34,063 bases of DNA from a bacterium (GTDB lineage: Bacteria > Hydrothermota > UBA3073 > JACQXS01). Shown here one piece after another: positions 2,834-32,498 of this stretch (positions are counted from its first letter, which is position 1; each line of letters opens with the position of its first letter). The DNA is taken from contig JAUWHX010000074.1 in the NCBI GenBank assembly GCA_030605695.1, positions 1-34,063 on the forward strand, in the 5' to 3' direction. The notes under the pieces are model-generated. The model ran no database searches. It was not told the origin of the DNA and saw only the letters and a list, made by a program, of their open reading frames with translations. Made by a program: the position numbers and the translations under genes.

Positions 2834-3352
2834 TTATTCTACAATCTTTGAGAAGTCAGCTATTCTCTGAAAAGACGAGTAAAGTTCATTAAGTAAAGCA
2901 AGTCGATTCTCACGCACATCAGTCTCTTTTGCCATCACTAAAACCTTATCAAAGAAATTATTTATTAAAGGAGCTAACTCAAGCAACCAATCCAAAGCAC
3001 TCTCATAGTCTCTTTTCTCCAGATAATTCTCAAACTTGTCTTGCCCCTTCATTAAAGCGTCATAGAGCTCTTTTTCTTCAGGTTCTTTTAAGACTTGAGA
3101 CTTGAGACTTAAGACTTGAGACTTGTTTAATATATTTCTCACTCTCTTGGCTAATCTGATAAGTGTGATAAAATCTTCTTTATCTTTTAGCTTATTCAAT
3201 GCGTTTATTCTTGCAAGCAAATCAACTATATCATCATTTGGAACCTCAAGCACTGCATCTATTATATCATACCTGACACCCTTCTCCTCTAAATACCTTC
3301 TAAATCTCTGGATAAGAAACTCAAGTATCTTCTTTTCTTTATTATTCTGCAT
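2834..3352 (-). CDS. glyS: glycyl-tRNA synthetase beta subunit, C-terminal (anticodon-binding) part, separate ORF
   Basis: ILEFLIQRFRRYLEEKGVRYDIIDAVLEVPNDD...KRVRNILNK...NFFDKVLVMAKETDVRENRLALLNELYSSFQRIADFSKI is GlyS C-terminal sequence; same frame as the ORF ending at 3356. Confidence 0.85.
   Translation of the reverse strand: MQNNKEKKILEFLIQRFRRYLEEKGVRYDIIDAVLEVPNDDIVDLLARINALNKLKDKEDFITLIRLAKRVRNILNKSQVLSLKSQVLKEPEEKELYDALMKGQDKFENYLEKRDYESALDWLLELAPLINNFFDKVLVMAKETDVRENRLALLNELYSSFQRIADFSKIVE
3090..3125. repeat. heptamer tandem repeat (RAGACTT)x5 inside the glyS 3' ORF
   Basis: aagactt gagactt gagactt aagactt gagactt; coding strand reads SQVLSLKSQVL. Confidence 0.9.
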
Positions 3353-3355
3353 TTT

Positions 3356-4906
3356 TTAAATCTTTTCCAAAAACTGCTGTCTTCTATACATTGAAACGCT
3401 TTCCTTTATTAACTTTTTTAGTGGAATGTATATGTGATTTTTTATAATAATTGATGTAAGCTCATTCCCAACTCTCCTTACTCCAAGAGGGTCTTTGCTG
3501 CCCGTAGGTGTTTTGCCAAGTATGAAAGCTCCCGCGATAGTATCAATCCTATCTGCAATTGCTAATGCTACTCCTTCAGGAGAAGTCTCAATATCTGGAA
3601 TCCCTACCCTTTCTTTCATTGCAATTACAACCTTTGAGTCTAAACCTTGCTTCTCAGCCAATATACTTCCATATAAGCCCTCAAGCTTTGTAAATTCTTT
3701 CCCATCCTTTATCATATTTGTCAACAAATCCACTTTAGATAGCTGTGCAGCTTTTTCTAATACACTTAAATCTGCATTTGGAATATATCCTTGGGCTATG
3801 TATTTAGAGAGTTCTATCAATCGTTGCGTCTTATCATATAATGTTCCAAGTCCTTCTTGCCACACAACTTCTTTGAGTTCAGGCAGTCTTTTTTTGAGTG
3901 GAATTTTCATATCTTCTTTGTAGTAAAACTCTGCATCCGCAAGTCTGGCACGGAGAACTCTCTCATGCCCTTCTCTTATTTTGTCAATATCTCCATCTTT
4001 CGTATTTGCAACTACTATAAAATAAGGAGCTAACTTCCCAGTTTCTCTTGCAAGAGCAAAATATCGCTGATGAGTTTCCATCGCTGCAATAATTACTTCT
4101 TTGGGGAGCTTAAGATATTTCTTGTCAAATTTACCCAGGATAGCTCTGGGAGATTCAACAAGATTTGTAACTTCATCAAGGAGGTTTCCATATTCTGGAG
4201 TTAGGTCTTTTCCTTTGATTAGCTTTCGGATGTTTTCCATTATCAAATTTAATCTCTTGTCAGCGTTTGCAACTATACCGCTTTCTCCAAGAACTTCTTC
4301 ATAAGAATTTGCTGACTTTATGGTAATAGGCAAAGTAAATCGTAAGCCCTGACTTTTATTTCCAGACTTTACTCCTGCAATTTCAAACGGAATTACAGTT
4401 TTATCCAAGAGTGCTACTATCCACCGAATTGGACGTGCAAATCGGAATCCTGATGACTCCCACCGCATAGACTTGGGAAACTCAATTTGTGAGATTATAT
4501 CCTGCAAAGCCGACTCAAGAATCTCTGAAGTCTCTTTTCCCTTTTGGAGCTTCTGGTAATATATCACTTCCTGCTTTCCCTTCTTCTTCACTTTAAGCTC
4601 TGAAGGAAGCACTTTATGAGCTTTTGCAAATCCAATCCCAGCTTTGGTTAGATTGCCATTCTTATCAAATGCAACTTCTTTTGGAGGTCCTGTGATTTCA
4701 ATGGATTTATCTTCTTGTTGTATAGCCACATTTTTAATTAAAACAGCAATTCTTCTGGGAGTATAGAATATATTAGGTTTGTCGTGGGAAATTCCTTCTT
4801 TTGAGAGCAATTCGCAGATTTTATTGGCTAATTGAGTGGATGTGCCTTGAAGCCAGCCGGCGGGTATTTCCTCTGTCCCAATCTCCAAAAGAAAGTCTCT
4901 ACTCAT
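3356..4906 (-). CDS. glyS: glycyl-tRNA synthetase beta subunit, N-terminal and central part, ends at in-frame TAA
   Basis: MSRDFLLEIGTEEIPAGW...GPPKEVAFDKNGNLTKAGIGFAKAH...AMETHQRYFALARETGKLAPYFIVVANTKD...DRIDTIAGAFILGKTPTGSKDPLGVRR. Confidence 0.92.
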   Translation of the reverse strand: MSRDFLLEIGTEEIPAGWLQGTSTQLANKICELLSKEGISHDKPNIFYTPRRIAVLIKNVAIQQEDKSIEITGPPKEVAFDKNGNLTKAGIGFAKAHKVLPSELKVKKKGKQEVIYYQKLQKGKETSEILESALQDIISQIEFPKSMRWESSGFRFARPIRWIVALLDKTVIPFEIAGVKSGNKSQGLRFTLPITIKSANSYEEVLGESGIVANADKRLNLIMENIRKLIKGKDLTPEYGNLLDEVTNLVESPRAILGKFDKKYLKLPKEVIIAAMETHQRYFALARETGKLAPYFIVVANTKDGDIDKIREGHERVLRARLADAEFYYKEDMKIPLKKRLPELKEVVWQEGLGTLYDKTQRLIELSKYIAQGYIPNADLSVLEKAAQLSKVDLLTNMIKDGKEFTKLEGLYGSILAEKQGLDSKVVIAMKERVGIPDIETSPEGVALAIADRIDTIAGAFILGKTPTGSKDPLGVRRVGNELTSIIIKNHIYIPLKKLIKESVSMYRRQQFLEKI

Positions 4907-5710: not shown

Positions 5711-6365
5711 TTATTCCCATCTCCAAGCAAAAGTGAGGCTTCCTCCTCCACCTCCATCCCCCACAGTAGTAAGATACCCTTCTACGCGGCAGAAAAGAGT
5801 CTCAAGTATTTGAGGCTCAAAATAAGCACCAAGAAATCCGGAAAACCACCCTGTTGCGAAATACGTCCCATAATGTACTTTGCTATGTTTGCCTTCCATA
5901 CCACAGGAGAAAAGACCTGCACGCTCCAAAGAATAAAGAATAAAGAATATCATATCTCTGAAAACCTGCATATACATACCAGTCTTTTGGTCCGATGCCA
6001 AGCCATACAGCGGGAAAAATGTATGCACCAGGGACATAATACTTGCTTGTTGAAATCAGCACATCTTTCCCTATTCCGAAGTGAATAAACCTTATCCGTG
6101 TGTTCCATCCTATATATCCTCGCAGACCTTTTGCCTCCTCGTAATCTCTTACTTCATCTTCTATGCGTAATAGTGCATAAAAGCTTCCAATGGGTGATAT
6201 ATCCTGTACATATCTCACTCCCATATAGGAACACTCCACAGGAAGAGAGCTAAAAAATTCCTCTTCATACTTCCCATAAGCACCAAAAACTCCGAGCTCG
6301 CTTGCATAAAGTTGAAAATTAAGTCCCGAGAAGAAAATAACTATGGTAATGAAAAAACACTTCAT
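5711..6365 (-). pseudogene. exported small protein (possibly an outer-membrane barrel) interrupted by a frameshift; covers ORFs 5883..6365 and 5711..6037
   Basis: Signal peptide MKCFFITIVIFFSGLNFQLYA in the first ORF. Removing one copy of the tandem 7-mer aataaag (5932-5945) joins ...YAGFQRYDILYSL to ERAGLFSCGMEGKHSKVHYGTYFATGWFSGFLGAYFEP...LTFAWRWE. Confidence 0.65.
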
Positions 6366-8097: not shown

Positions 8098-9186
8098 ATG
8101 AACTTATTAGTAACAGGAGGAGCAGGTTTTATTGGGAGTAATTTTGTTAATATGGTATTGAAGGAGCATCCGGAGGTAAAGGTTACTGTTCTTGATGCTT
8201 TGACATATTGTGGGAATTTAGATAATTTTCCACAGAATGTATGGGAAAACAAGAATTTTTCATTTTGTCAGGGTAATATTCTGGATAGAGATTTAGTTTT
8301 TGATTTAATGAAGGACCAGGATGAAGTTGTCCATTTTGCTGCCTTTACTCATATAGACCGCTCAATTGACCTCTCTGACCCATTCATTGATACAGACTTT
8401 AAGGGAACACATATTTTGCTTGAGGCAATAAGGAAGTATCCAGTTCGCCGATTTGTGCATATATCAACATCAGAGGTCTATGGGAGTGCTCAAAAAGTTC
8501 CAATGGATGAATCTCATCCACTCAATCCTCAATCTCCTTATGCAGCGGCTAAAGCTGGTGCTGACAGACTTGTATATTCGTATTTCTTGACTTACGGGCT
8601 TCCAGTAGTAATTATTCGTCCATTTAATGCTTATGGTCCCAATCAATATCCGGAGAAACTAATTCCCTTTTTCATAACGAATACGATTTTGGATAAGAAT
8701 TTATTAATTTATGGAAATGGCAAAAACACAAGAGATTGGACTTATGTCAAGGATTGTGTTCGTGGGATATGGAAAGTGCTCCAAGCTCCGAGTATAGAAG
8801 GAGAAGTAATAAATTTAGGTTCAGGAAAAGAAGTAGATGTGGTTGGTATAGCGGAAGTTATACTGGAGGAGTTTAGAGTTCAGAGTTCAGAGTTCAGAGT
8901 TGAAAGTTCAAAGAGTGAAGAGTTAAAAGTGAAAAGTTCTAAAATGGAATTTATTGGAGACCGTCCGGGGCATGTAAAAAGATTAATTGCGAGCTATGAT
9001 AAAGCTGAAAATATTCTTGATTGGCATCCTGAAATTGAATTTGAGGAAGGACTTAAGCGAACCATAACATGGTATATGGATAATACAGAATGGTGGGAGA
9101 AGATAAGAGAAAAGCCGGAATTTAAGAACTTTGAGAAGTTGTGGTATGATAAGTTAAAAGTGAAAAGTGAAAAGGTTAAAGTTTAG
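8098..9186 (+). CDS. rfbB: dTDP-glucose 4,6-dehydratase
   Basis: MNLLVTGGAGFIGSNFVNMVL; HFAAFTHIDRSI; STSEVYGS; SPYAAAKAGADRLVYSY; RPFNAYGPNQYPEKLIPFFI; GDRPGHVKR. Confidence 0.93.
   Translation: MNLLVTGGAGFIGSNFVNMVLKEHPEVKVTVLDALTYCGNLDNFPQNVWENKNFSFCQGNILDRDLVFDLMKDQDEVVHFAAFTHIDRSIDLSDPFIDTDFKGTHILLEAIRKYPVRRFVHISTSEVYGSAQKVPMDESHPLNPQSPYAAAKAGADRLVYSYFLTYGLPVVIIRPFNAYGPNQYPEKLIPFFITNTILDKNLLIYGNGKNTRDWTYVKDCVRGIWKVLQAPSIEGEVINLGSGKEVDVVGIAEVILEEFRVQSSEFRVESSKSEELKVKSSKMEFIGDRPGHVKRLIASYDKAENILDWHPEIEFEEGLKRTITWYMDNTEWWEKIREKPEFKNFEKLWYDKLKVKSEKVKV
8871..8937. repeat. heptamer tandem tract (GTTCAGA-like) inside rfbB
   Basis: gtttaga gttcaga gttcaga gttcaga gttgaaa gttcaaa ...; encodes FRVQSSEFRVESSKSEELKVKSS between ILEE and EFIGDRPGH. 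Confidence 0.92.
9151..9185. repeat. heptamer tandem tract (AAGTGAA-like x5) forming the 3' end of rfbB
   Basis: aagttaa aagtgaa aagtgaa aaggtta aagttta; encodes C-terminal KLKVKSEKVKV and most of the stop codon. Confidence 0.85.
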
Positions 9187-25103: not shown

Positions 25104-26579
25104 ATGAATATTTTAATGCTTAATCCCCCATTTAAAGGGAGGTTTTCAAGGGAACAACGTTCTCCTGCTATTACAAAGTCTGGAACTCTGTATTATCCTA
25201 TGTGGCTTGCTTACGCTACAGGTATGCTTGAACAAGAAAATTTCAATGTGAAGCTTATAGACGCACCTGCCTCCGGCATAAATGAACAAAAAGTTATTGA
25301 AATCGCAAGTGGATTTAATCCTTCTCTCATTGTGATTGATACCAGCACCCCAAGTATATATAACGATATAAGAATTGGAGAAACTCTCAAACAACTCTTA
25401 ACTCTTAACTCTCAACTCTCAACTCCCATAATTGTTTTGGTCGGACCGCATGTTTCTGCTACTCCTGATGAGACACTAAAATATAGTAATAATGTTGACA
25501 TTGTTTGTAGAGGCGAGTATGATTATACAATAAAAAATATTGCACGAAATATAGAACAAGGTGAGAGTTTTGATAAGATTAATGGAATAAGTTTTAGAAA
25601 AAATGGAGAGATTATACGCAATCCTCCTCAGGAATTTATTAAGGATTTAGATGCTCTGCCATTCGTATCCAAAATTTACAAATCTCATCTTGACCATACT
25701 CAGTATTTTTATGGCCACTCTCAGCATCCGATTGTGGCAATAATAGGTGGACGGGGTTGTCCTTATCAATGTATTTATTGCGTGTATCCTCAAACTTTTA
25801 GTGGTAGGTCTACTCGTTACAGGTCTATCAAAAATATCGTGGATGAACTTGAATTCATTACAAGCGAATTTAAGCCCTTGAGAGAAATAATGTTTGAAGA
25901 TGATACATTGACTTTAAACCGTTCACGGTGTAAGAAATTTTGCGAAGAAATCCTAAACCGTAATATCAGAATTAAGTGGTCTGCGAATTCAAGAGCAGAT
26001 GCAGATTTTGATACTCTCAAGCTTATGCATAAAGCAGGTTGCAGATTACTTTGTGTCGGTTTTGAGTCCGGAAACCAGAATATTCTTGATAGTATGCGCA
26101 AAGGAATCTCTCTTGAGAAAATGAAACAATTTGCTTCAGATGCTAAAAAAGCTGGTGTTCTCATTCATGGATGCTTTCTTGTAGGCAATCCAGGAGAAAC
26201 AAAAAATACTATGCTCAAAACTCTTGAATTTGCAAAAGAGTTAAACCCAGATACTGCACAATTTTTCCCTATTATGGTATATCCGGGAACTGAGGCTTAT
26301 AGATGGGCAAAAGAATCTGGACATCTCAGAACTACCAATTATAGTGATTGGCTCACGCTTGAGGGATTTCATAATTGTGTTGTAGATTACGAAAACCTGT
26401 CAAGTGAAGAGCTTGTGGAATTTTGTGATTATGCAAGGAGAGAGTTTTATCTTCGTCCTCGGTATCTTGTAAAAAAATCTATCCAAGTCATTAAAAATCC
26501 TCGTGAAGCCGGGAGAACTTTTAAATCATTGAAAACTTTTGCTAAACACCTTGTTAAAAATGCAAAATTTAGAGATTAA
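25104..26579 (+). CDS. B12-binding radical SAM protein
   Basis: N-terminal cobalamin-binding-like domain (LVGPHVSATPDE); cluster motif GRGCPYQCIYCVYPQ; FEDDTLTLNRSRCKKFCEEIL; VGFESGNQNILDSMRKG; GCFLVGNPGETKNTM. Confidence 0.92.
   Translation: MNILMLNPPFKGRFSREQRSPAITKSGTLYYPMWLAYATGMLEQENFNVKLIDAPASGINEQKVIEIASGFNPSLIVIDTSTPSIYNDIRIGETLKQLLTLNSQLSTPIIVLVGPHVSATPDETLKYSNNVDIVCRGEYDYTIKNIARNIEQGESFDKINGISFRKNGEIIRNPPQEFIKDLDALPFVSKIYKSHLDHTQYFYGHSQHPIVAIIGGRGCPYQCIYCVYPQTFSGRSTRYRSIKNIVDELEFITSEFKPLREIMFEDDTLTLNRSRCKKFCEEILNRNIRIKWSANSRADADFDTLKLMHKAGCRLLCVGFESGNQNILDSMRKGISLEKMKQFASDAKKAGVLIHGCFLVGNPGETKNTMLKTLEFAKELNPDTAQFFPIMVYPGTEAYRWAKESGHLRTTNYSDWLTLEGFHNCVVDYENLSSEELVEFCDYARREFYLRPRYLVKKSIQVIKNPREAGRTFKSLKTFAKHLVKNAKFRD
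25392..25426. repeat. heptamer tandem tract (YAACTCT x5) inside the radical SAM gene
   Basis: caactct taactct taactct caactct caactcc; encodes QLLTLNSQLSTP just before IIVLVGPH. Confidence 0.92.
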
Positions 26580-31310: not shown

Positions 31311-32498
31311 GTGGTTAATAAAATGGAAGAGACACTAAATAAAATTGCTATTATCGCAAAGAGGAATAATATTAAAGCGTATGTAGTTGGTGGAGCTGTG
31401 CGGGATACTTTGCTCGGCAGAAAAGACTTTGGTATAGATATTACAATTGAGGGTAATGGAATGGAATTTGCTAAAATACTTCAAAAGGAGTTTGGTGGCT
31501 TATTGCGTCAACATTCAAAATTTGGAACCGCCTCTTTAATTTTTAATAAAAGAACTATTGATATTGCAAGCTGTAGAGAAGAAAAATATCCCGGAGTAGC
31601 TGAACTTCCGAAGGTAAAAATGTGCACCTTCAAAGAAGACCTGAAGCGAAGGGACTTTACAATAAATACACTTGCATGGGACCTTGAGACAAAAGAGCTA
31701 ATAGACTTATTTAATGGCAGAAAAGATTTAGATGCCAAGTTAATAAGAGTACTCCATCCCAAGAGCTTTGTTGATGACCCAACGAGGATATTTCGTGCAC
31801 TAAGATTTGCAGGCAAACTTGGTTTCAGGCTTGAGCCAGTTACTAAATCTCTTGCTCTCGATGCCATAAAAAAAGGGTTTATAGAAAAACTCTCTCCGAA
31901 AAGGATAAGAGACCAGATTATTTTAATTCTCAAAGAATCTGACCGTCAAAAAATACTTGAACTTATGTATCAGTTCGGAATCTTTAAGCACATAGGACTC
32001 AAGTTGCCGGAAGTTGAGTTATTCAGAAACATAGATAAGAATCTTATTCACAATTCACGATTCACGATTCACGATTCACGAATAGGGTTTGTTTATTTGC
32101 TTGGCATTATTGAACTCAAAAATCCTCCTAAGTTTCTTACTTTTACTCGGCGTGAGCTTCAAAAGATTGACCACGTACACACAATTTTAGCCCATTTATC
32201 CAAGCTTGAATCTGCCCAAAAACCAAGTGAAGTATATGACTTGCTCTATCCCTCAGGTAATGAAGAACTTTTATTTATAGCTTCGACTTACCCTAAATTA
32301 AAACCGAAAATCCTAAAATTCCTGAAAGTTTACAAGAAAGTAAAATTAAGTATCAGTGGTAAGGATTTGAGTCAGCTCGGAATAAAAAAGGGACCTTTAT
32401 ATAAAGAATTGCTTTCTACTACACTTTATGCAAAACTTGATGGCAAAGTCCAAGGGAAAAAAGAAGAACTTGAGTTTGTAAAAAGTAGAGCTTCATAA
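31311..32498 (+). CDS. CCA tRNA nucleotidyltransferase / poly(A) polymerase family
   Basis: AYVVGGAVRDTLLGRKDFGIDITIEG; FGTASLIF; RRDFTINTLAWDLETKELIDLFNGRKDLDAKLIRVLHPKSFVDDPTRIFRALRFAGKLGF. Confidence 0.93.
   Translation: MVNKMEETLNKIAIIAKRNNIKAYVVGGAVRDTLLGRKDFGIDITIEGNGMEFAKILQKEFGGLLRQHSKFGTASLIFNKRTIDIASCREEKYPGVAELPKVKMCTFKEDLKRRDFTINTLAWDLETKELIDLFNGRKDLDAKLIRVLHPKSFVDDPTRIFRALRFAGKLGFRLEPVTKSLALDAIKKGFIEKLSPKRIRDQIILILKESDRQKILELMYQFGIFKHIGLKLPEVELFRNIDKNLIHNSRFTIHDSRIGFVYLLGIIELKNPPKFLTFTRRELQKIDHVHTILAHLSKLESAQKPSEVYDLLYPSGNEELLFIASTYPKLKPKILKFLKVYKKVKLSISGKDLSQLGIKKGPLYKELLSTTLYAKLDGKVQGKKEELEFVKSRAS
32046..32080. repeat. heptamer tandem tract (ATTCACG x5) inside the CCA-adding enzyme gene
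   Basis: attcaca attcacg attcacg attcacg attcacg; encodes IHNSRFTIHDSR. Confidence 0.95.

Follow-up and report, generated by a model that had tools for sequence, protein, structure and literature searches.

Naturally split aminoacyl-tRNA synthetases exist, for example the two-chain LeuRS of Aquifex. The number of chains in glycyl-tRNA synthetase (GlyRS) varies in evolution as well, the enzyme occurring as a one-chain dimer, a two-chain tetramer or a fusion, and fused alpha-beta GlyRS has been described in Chlamydia and others (PMC8464048). In the beta subunit (GlyS) of E. coli, the HD domain spans residues 341-540 and the anticodon-binding domain (ABD) begins at 541, and a subunit truncated at residue 575 retains some charging (PMC8464048). 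When tRNA binds, the HD domain and ABD move and rotate together as a single body; Arg531, in the last HD helix, contacts the acceptor stem, and Arg585 and Asn588 are placed at the anticodon loop (PMC9908026). For genes coupled by termination and reinitiation, native E. coli pairs lose 5-70% of reinitiation with a 2-nt gap, and a distance of ~38 nt nearly abolishes it (PMC10666635). No split GlyS beta was found among the papers searched.

The window, i.e., the whole stretch of 34,063 nucleotides that was analysed, is contig C66 of a metagenome-assembled genome (MAG) of 1.98 Mb in 93 contigs, 84% complete and 1.9% contaminated, whose best named matches among GTDB genomes are candidate division WOR-3 / Stahlbacteria MAGs. 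Its glyS gene has a LemA gene, a glycosyltransferase gene and a polysaccharide-synthesis cluster as neighbours and consists of the following features.

3356 to 4906, minus strand: N-terminal part of glyS, 516 codons ending in TAA; domains B1, B2 and B3 and most of the HD domain of GlyRS beta
2834 to 3352, minus strand: C-terminal part of glyS, 172 codons; last HD helix and anticodon-binding domain
3350 to 3361, minus strand: junction ATT TAA AAA ATG, i.e., stop, single codon and restart, with an intergenic distance of +3 nt
3362 to 3368, minus strand: GGAAAAG, a candidate Shine-Dalgarno sequence of moderate strength, 9 nt ahead of the second ATG
3290 to 3470, minus strand: hypervariable linker round the stop, diverged from both congeners

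Across the break, the minus strand reads ...GGAAAAG ATT TAA AAA ATG CAG..., with the TAA at 3356-3358 at a T/A homopolymer junction, the AAA (Lys) at 3353-3355 and the ATG at 3350-3352. The N-part matches TIGR00211 positions 1-511 (E 2.7e-170), PF02092 positions 1-506 and PDB 7eiv_C, among others, and the C-part matches TIGR00211 positions 514-684 (E 6.2e-44), PF02092 positions 505-535, DALR_1 and 7yse_C positions 522-687. Jointly, the two ORFs span the full GlyS beta profile, so that no part is lost and the chain alone is interrupted. The read-through frame matches TIGR00211 1-684, and a whole-genome search separately reports a single glyS with "1 TAA" inside. The observation itself is confirmed: as the earlier note had claimed, glyS is two ORFs in one frame, parted by a TAA and a Lys codon, and 516 codons, the stop, the Lys codon and 172 codons add up to 690, the usual length of GlyS.

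The split glyS is the sole glyS in the assembly, which contains neither a second intact copy nor a strain variant. The partner gene glyQ is full-length on another contig (G000:C83, 398 bits, above the cut-off). A profile search of the 84%-complete assembly for a second, dimeric (single-chain) GlyRS, a check proposed along with the original observation, yielded none above the cut-off, which rejects a backup enzyme in the assembly. The best match had 30 bits and covered profile positions 441-555 only, a C-terminal stretch that is matched weakly in nearly all genomes. A dimeric GlyRS could have been missed through incompleteness, but this is unlikely, as the enzyme is above the cut-off in only 1 of 60 relatives. 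Elsewhere in the phylum, a 97% complete MAG (G023) carries glyQ (G023:C31:6945-7769) and has no glyS or dimeric GlyRS reaching the cut-off, owing to either an assembly gap or a divergent beta subunit.

The position of the cut was assessed in an AlphaFold model of the 690-residue read-through frame, built with an alignment of 41 relatives. The model has the fold of GlyS beta with a mean pLDDT of 92. Only one ten-residue block, 511-520, has a mean pLDDT below 70 (58), and this block holds the TAA. It is located between helices 496-508 and 520-541 and contains a short predicted helix at 514-518. Aligned to E. coli GlyS, the upstream chain stops near residue 517 and the downstream chain starts near 522; the cut is therefore in a loop within the HD domain, ahead of its last helix. 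The stop had been placed at a domain boundary, which is nearly right: with the E. coli HD domain at 341-540 and the downstream chain beginning near 522, the assignment is one helix off. The C-part keeps the residues aligned with E. coli Arg531, Arg585 and Asn588, the two arginines being invariant in the 42-sequence alignment. The last HD helix probably offers the C-chain an obvious docking route into the N-chain.

A restart at the second ATG is plausible in terms of distance, as +3 nt is short enough for coupling by the published distance dependence (PMC10666635). In GlyS genes of the genus, 2.4% of randomly chosen codons have an ATG within the next two codons, and 8.4% have an ATG, GTG or TTG there. 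GGAAAAG had been put forward as a Shine-Dalgarno sequence about 9 nt before this ATG; the spacing holds up and the strength is only moderate, as the 20-nt leader pairs with the 16S tail at -4.5 kcal/mol in a window where genes range from -0.3 to -12.9. Even so, the leader of glyS itself pairs less well (-2.4).

Two genomes of the same genus, G001 and G002, served as congeners. The codon in close relatives, another check suggested by the earlier note, spoke against a conserved split, as glyS is unsplit in both congeners, with a different, shorter linker at the break site. No internal stop was present in the other full-length glyS genes listed from 147 phylum genomes, nor within the GlyS-aligned region of the 80 best GTDB loci, 6 of which do not span glyS end to end. 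Among the matches listed from a broader set of 390 genomes, one other gene was flagged, in G314, where the TAA is the normal gene end and not a second split. A split conserved in relatives is thus rejected, and the split is known from one MAG. A differently and more heavily damaged glyS occurs in the same family, in G003 (L031 1081-2866, G003:C122), which lacks ~80-90 codons and carries a frameshift; a profile search found no dimeric GlyRS in that genome.

The linker is the most variable part of glyS. At 3290-3470 its identity to G001 is ~52-75%, compared with 88-100% in most flanking 60-base blocks, and between two motifs it has 51 residues versus the usual 43-47, in a range that reaches 61. 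Segment trees join the glyS flanks to G001 (0.98 and 0.97) but place residues 359-548 outside the G001/G002 pair (support 0.98). On these trees glyS (2834-4906) is a mosaic, a pattern that suggests recombination within the family, and the stop is therefore not datable against G001. Downstream, residues 549-690 show a dN of 0.009 and a dS of 0.127 relative to G001 (dN/dS ~0.07), a constraint that may predate the stop. The C-part has no second lesion or visible decay in addition to the one stop. A pseudogene with several lesions or relaxed constraint does not describe this gene, which has a single stop and a dN/dS of ~0.07, with the same reservation as to its age. In G005, the assembly breaks inside the glyS linker (L023 / L032, at the starts of C81 and C156), and the two contig ends share a stretch of ~19 codons, pointing to repeats or strain diversity in the linker loop. 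The G001 linker contains heptamer-like repeats. No heptamer array is present at 3356, and heptamer slippage is rejected as the cause of the stop.

The reliability of the local sequence was assessed by tracing ORFs of G001 and G002 in ~422 kb of sampled stretches of this genome. Of the 82 ORFs traced across 80% or more of their length, glyS and one neighbour were the only ones interrupted, apart from the following cases. Extra in-frame stops that were inspected lay upstream of true starts or within a probable antisense ORF, and one further in-frame stop, in a short self-repetitive ORF, was set aside from the count. The genes for AlaRS, ValRS, IleRS and LeuRS are whole. This baseline rejects genome-wide recoding or many interrupted genes.

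The interrupted neighbour (5714-6365, minus strand) is a 215-codon gene, intact in G001, whose frame is shifted here by an additional copy of the heptamer ATTCTTT in the tandem repeat at 5928-5949 (~3 copies versus ~2 in G001), possibly a phase-variation-like switch or an assembly error. Tandem heptamers are also seen elsewhere in the window, e.g., at 3091-3125, 8869-8910, 25392-25425 and 32046-32081, and on other contigs. Perfect arrays of at least 20 bp numbered 50 in 422 kb of this genome, compared with 0 in 334 kb of G002 and 13 in 873 kb from other phyla. Of the 50, 48 are inside ORFs of at least 150 aa on either strand. The arrays have expanded recently within coding sequence, and specifically in this lineage.

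The best reading of the locus, to which we give about an even chance, is that the cell produces both GlyS pieces and that these assemble with GlyQ. Of the four alternatives raised by the earlier note, the tests favour a natural two-chain GlyS: the assembly holds no backup GlyRS, the C-part retains the functional arginines and shows no visible decay, the one disordered loop is where the stop is found, and a distance of +3 nt suits reinitiation; readthrough is unlikely and a sequence or assembly error stays in contention. Against the split stand its occurrence in one MAG only, with unsplit glyS in the congeners and the other listed full-length genes of the phylum, the mosaic linker, in view of which the C-part may have been constrained before the stop arose, and a Shine-Dalgarno sequence of only moderate strength. 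Moreover, the C-chain must complete an HD fold that moves with the ABD (PMC9908026), and with the neighbouring gene frameshifted too, the local sequence may be unreliable. The main rival is that the TAA is an error of consensus or assembly, or a base from a minority strain, and that the cells have an ordinary single-chain GlyS. We regard it as unlikely, and keep it at that level because the finding was selected by a reader, concerns a single genome and is judged from the assembled sequence. It draws on the draft state of the MAG, its unsplit relatives, the TAA at a homopolymer junction, the lesion in a neighbouring gene and the G005 assembly, in which both glyS contigs end at the linker. An error would, however, have to strike the sole disordered block (10 of 690 residues) one codon ahead of an ATG, and stop-type interruptions are rare in the traced genes; such a chance landing is improbable.

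If the base is real, the stop could also be a recent or segregating nonsense allele whose N-chain, either by itself or with only small amounts of C-chain, makes a weakened enzyme. This reading ranks third and seems quite improbable to us. In its favour, the same family has another damaged glyS (G003), and E. coli beta cut at 575 still assembles into an active tetramer, though one that charges less (PMC8464048), so a weakened GlyRS is survivable in principle. The present cut removes more than the E. coli truncation, as an N-chain ending near residue 517 is also without the last HD helix and Arg531. The absence of a second lesion or decay in the C-part does not fit this reading either. A full-length chain produced by readthrough, suppression or slippage is very improbable, even though the halves share a frame and the model of the read-through product keeps the fold. 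TAA works as a normal stop codon at other sites, the end of glyS itself among them, no other conserved gene among those traced in 422 kb has an internal stop, and a change of frame by slippage would be useless with the halves already in the same one. The least probable explanation, and an extremely doubtful one, is a dying glyS replaced by another GlyRS that is missing from an assembly just 84% complete; the intact glyQ, the constrained C-part and the near absence of dimeric GlyRS among relatives (1 of 60 above the cut-off) all argue against it.

We favour, tentatively and with a little less than even confidence, a three-component GlyRS (GlyQ, GlyS-N and GlyS-C) with a beta subunit made by termination-reinitiation and an anticodon reader that is a separate chain. 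We infer that the base is correct and that the cell translates both pieces, which then associate. A stop codon in the flexible loop of the HD domain would have split glyS in this lineage. The ribosome would end the 516-residue N-chain at the TAA and reinitiate at the ATG 3 nt downstream to give the 172-residue C-chain, comprising the last HD helix and the anticodon-binding domain. The C-chain would re-insert its first helix into the N-chain's HD fold, and the two chains would join GlyQ in an (alpha, betaN, betaC)2 glycyl-tRNA synthetase. If this is true, the anticodon-reading end of GlyRS can be supplied as a separate chain, despite the HD domain and ABD rotating together (PMC9908026), and a stop codon can be tolerated in an essential gene at a site where the ribosome is able to restart. 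If the stop is an error, the locus is a warning on reading split genes from MAGs.

The locus resembles described GlyRS beta subunits (PDB 7eiv, 7yse and 8ie2) in its full profile coverage, fold, glyQ partner and tRNA-contacting arginines; in those the beta subunit is one chain, whereas here two ORFs are parted by a TAA and one codon. Fused GlyRS in Chlamydia and others likewise indicates that chain count is loose in evolution, although fusion is the opposite change. Termination-reinitiation pairs (PMC10666635) share the very short distance between stop and start and the expectation that the products belong to one complex; they usually overlap by -4 or -1, whereas the distance here is +3 and the coupling is predicted. 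A split GlyS beta would add to the known split synthetases and, as in the LeuRS of Aquifex, an essential synthetase would be broken between structural elements with pieces presumed to reassemble; that case concerns another enzyme and another cut site, and the GlyS pieces adjoin at +3 nt, with their expression and assembly predicted.
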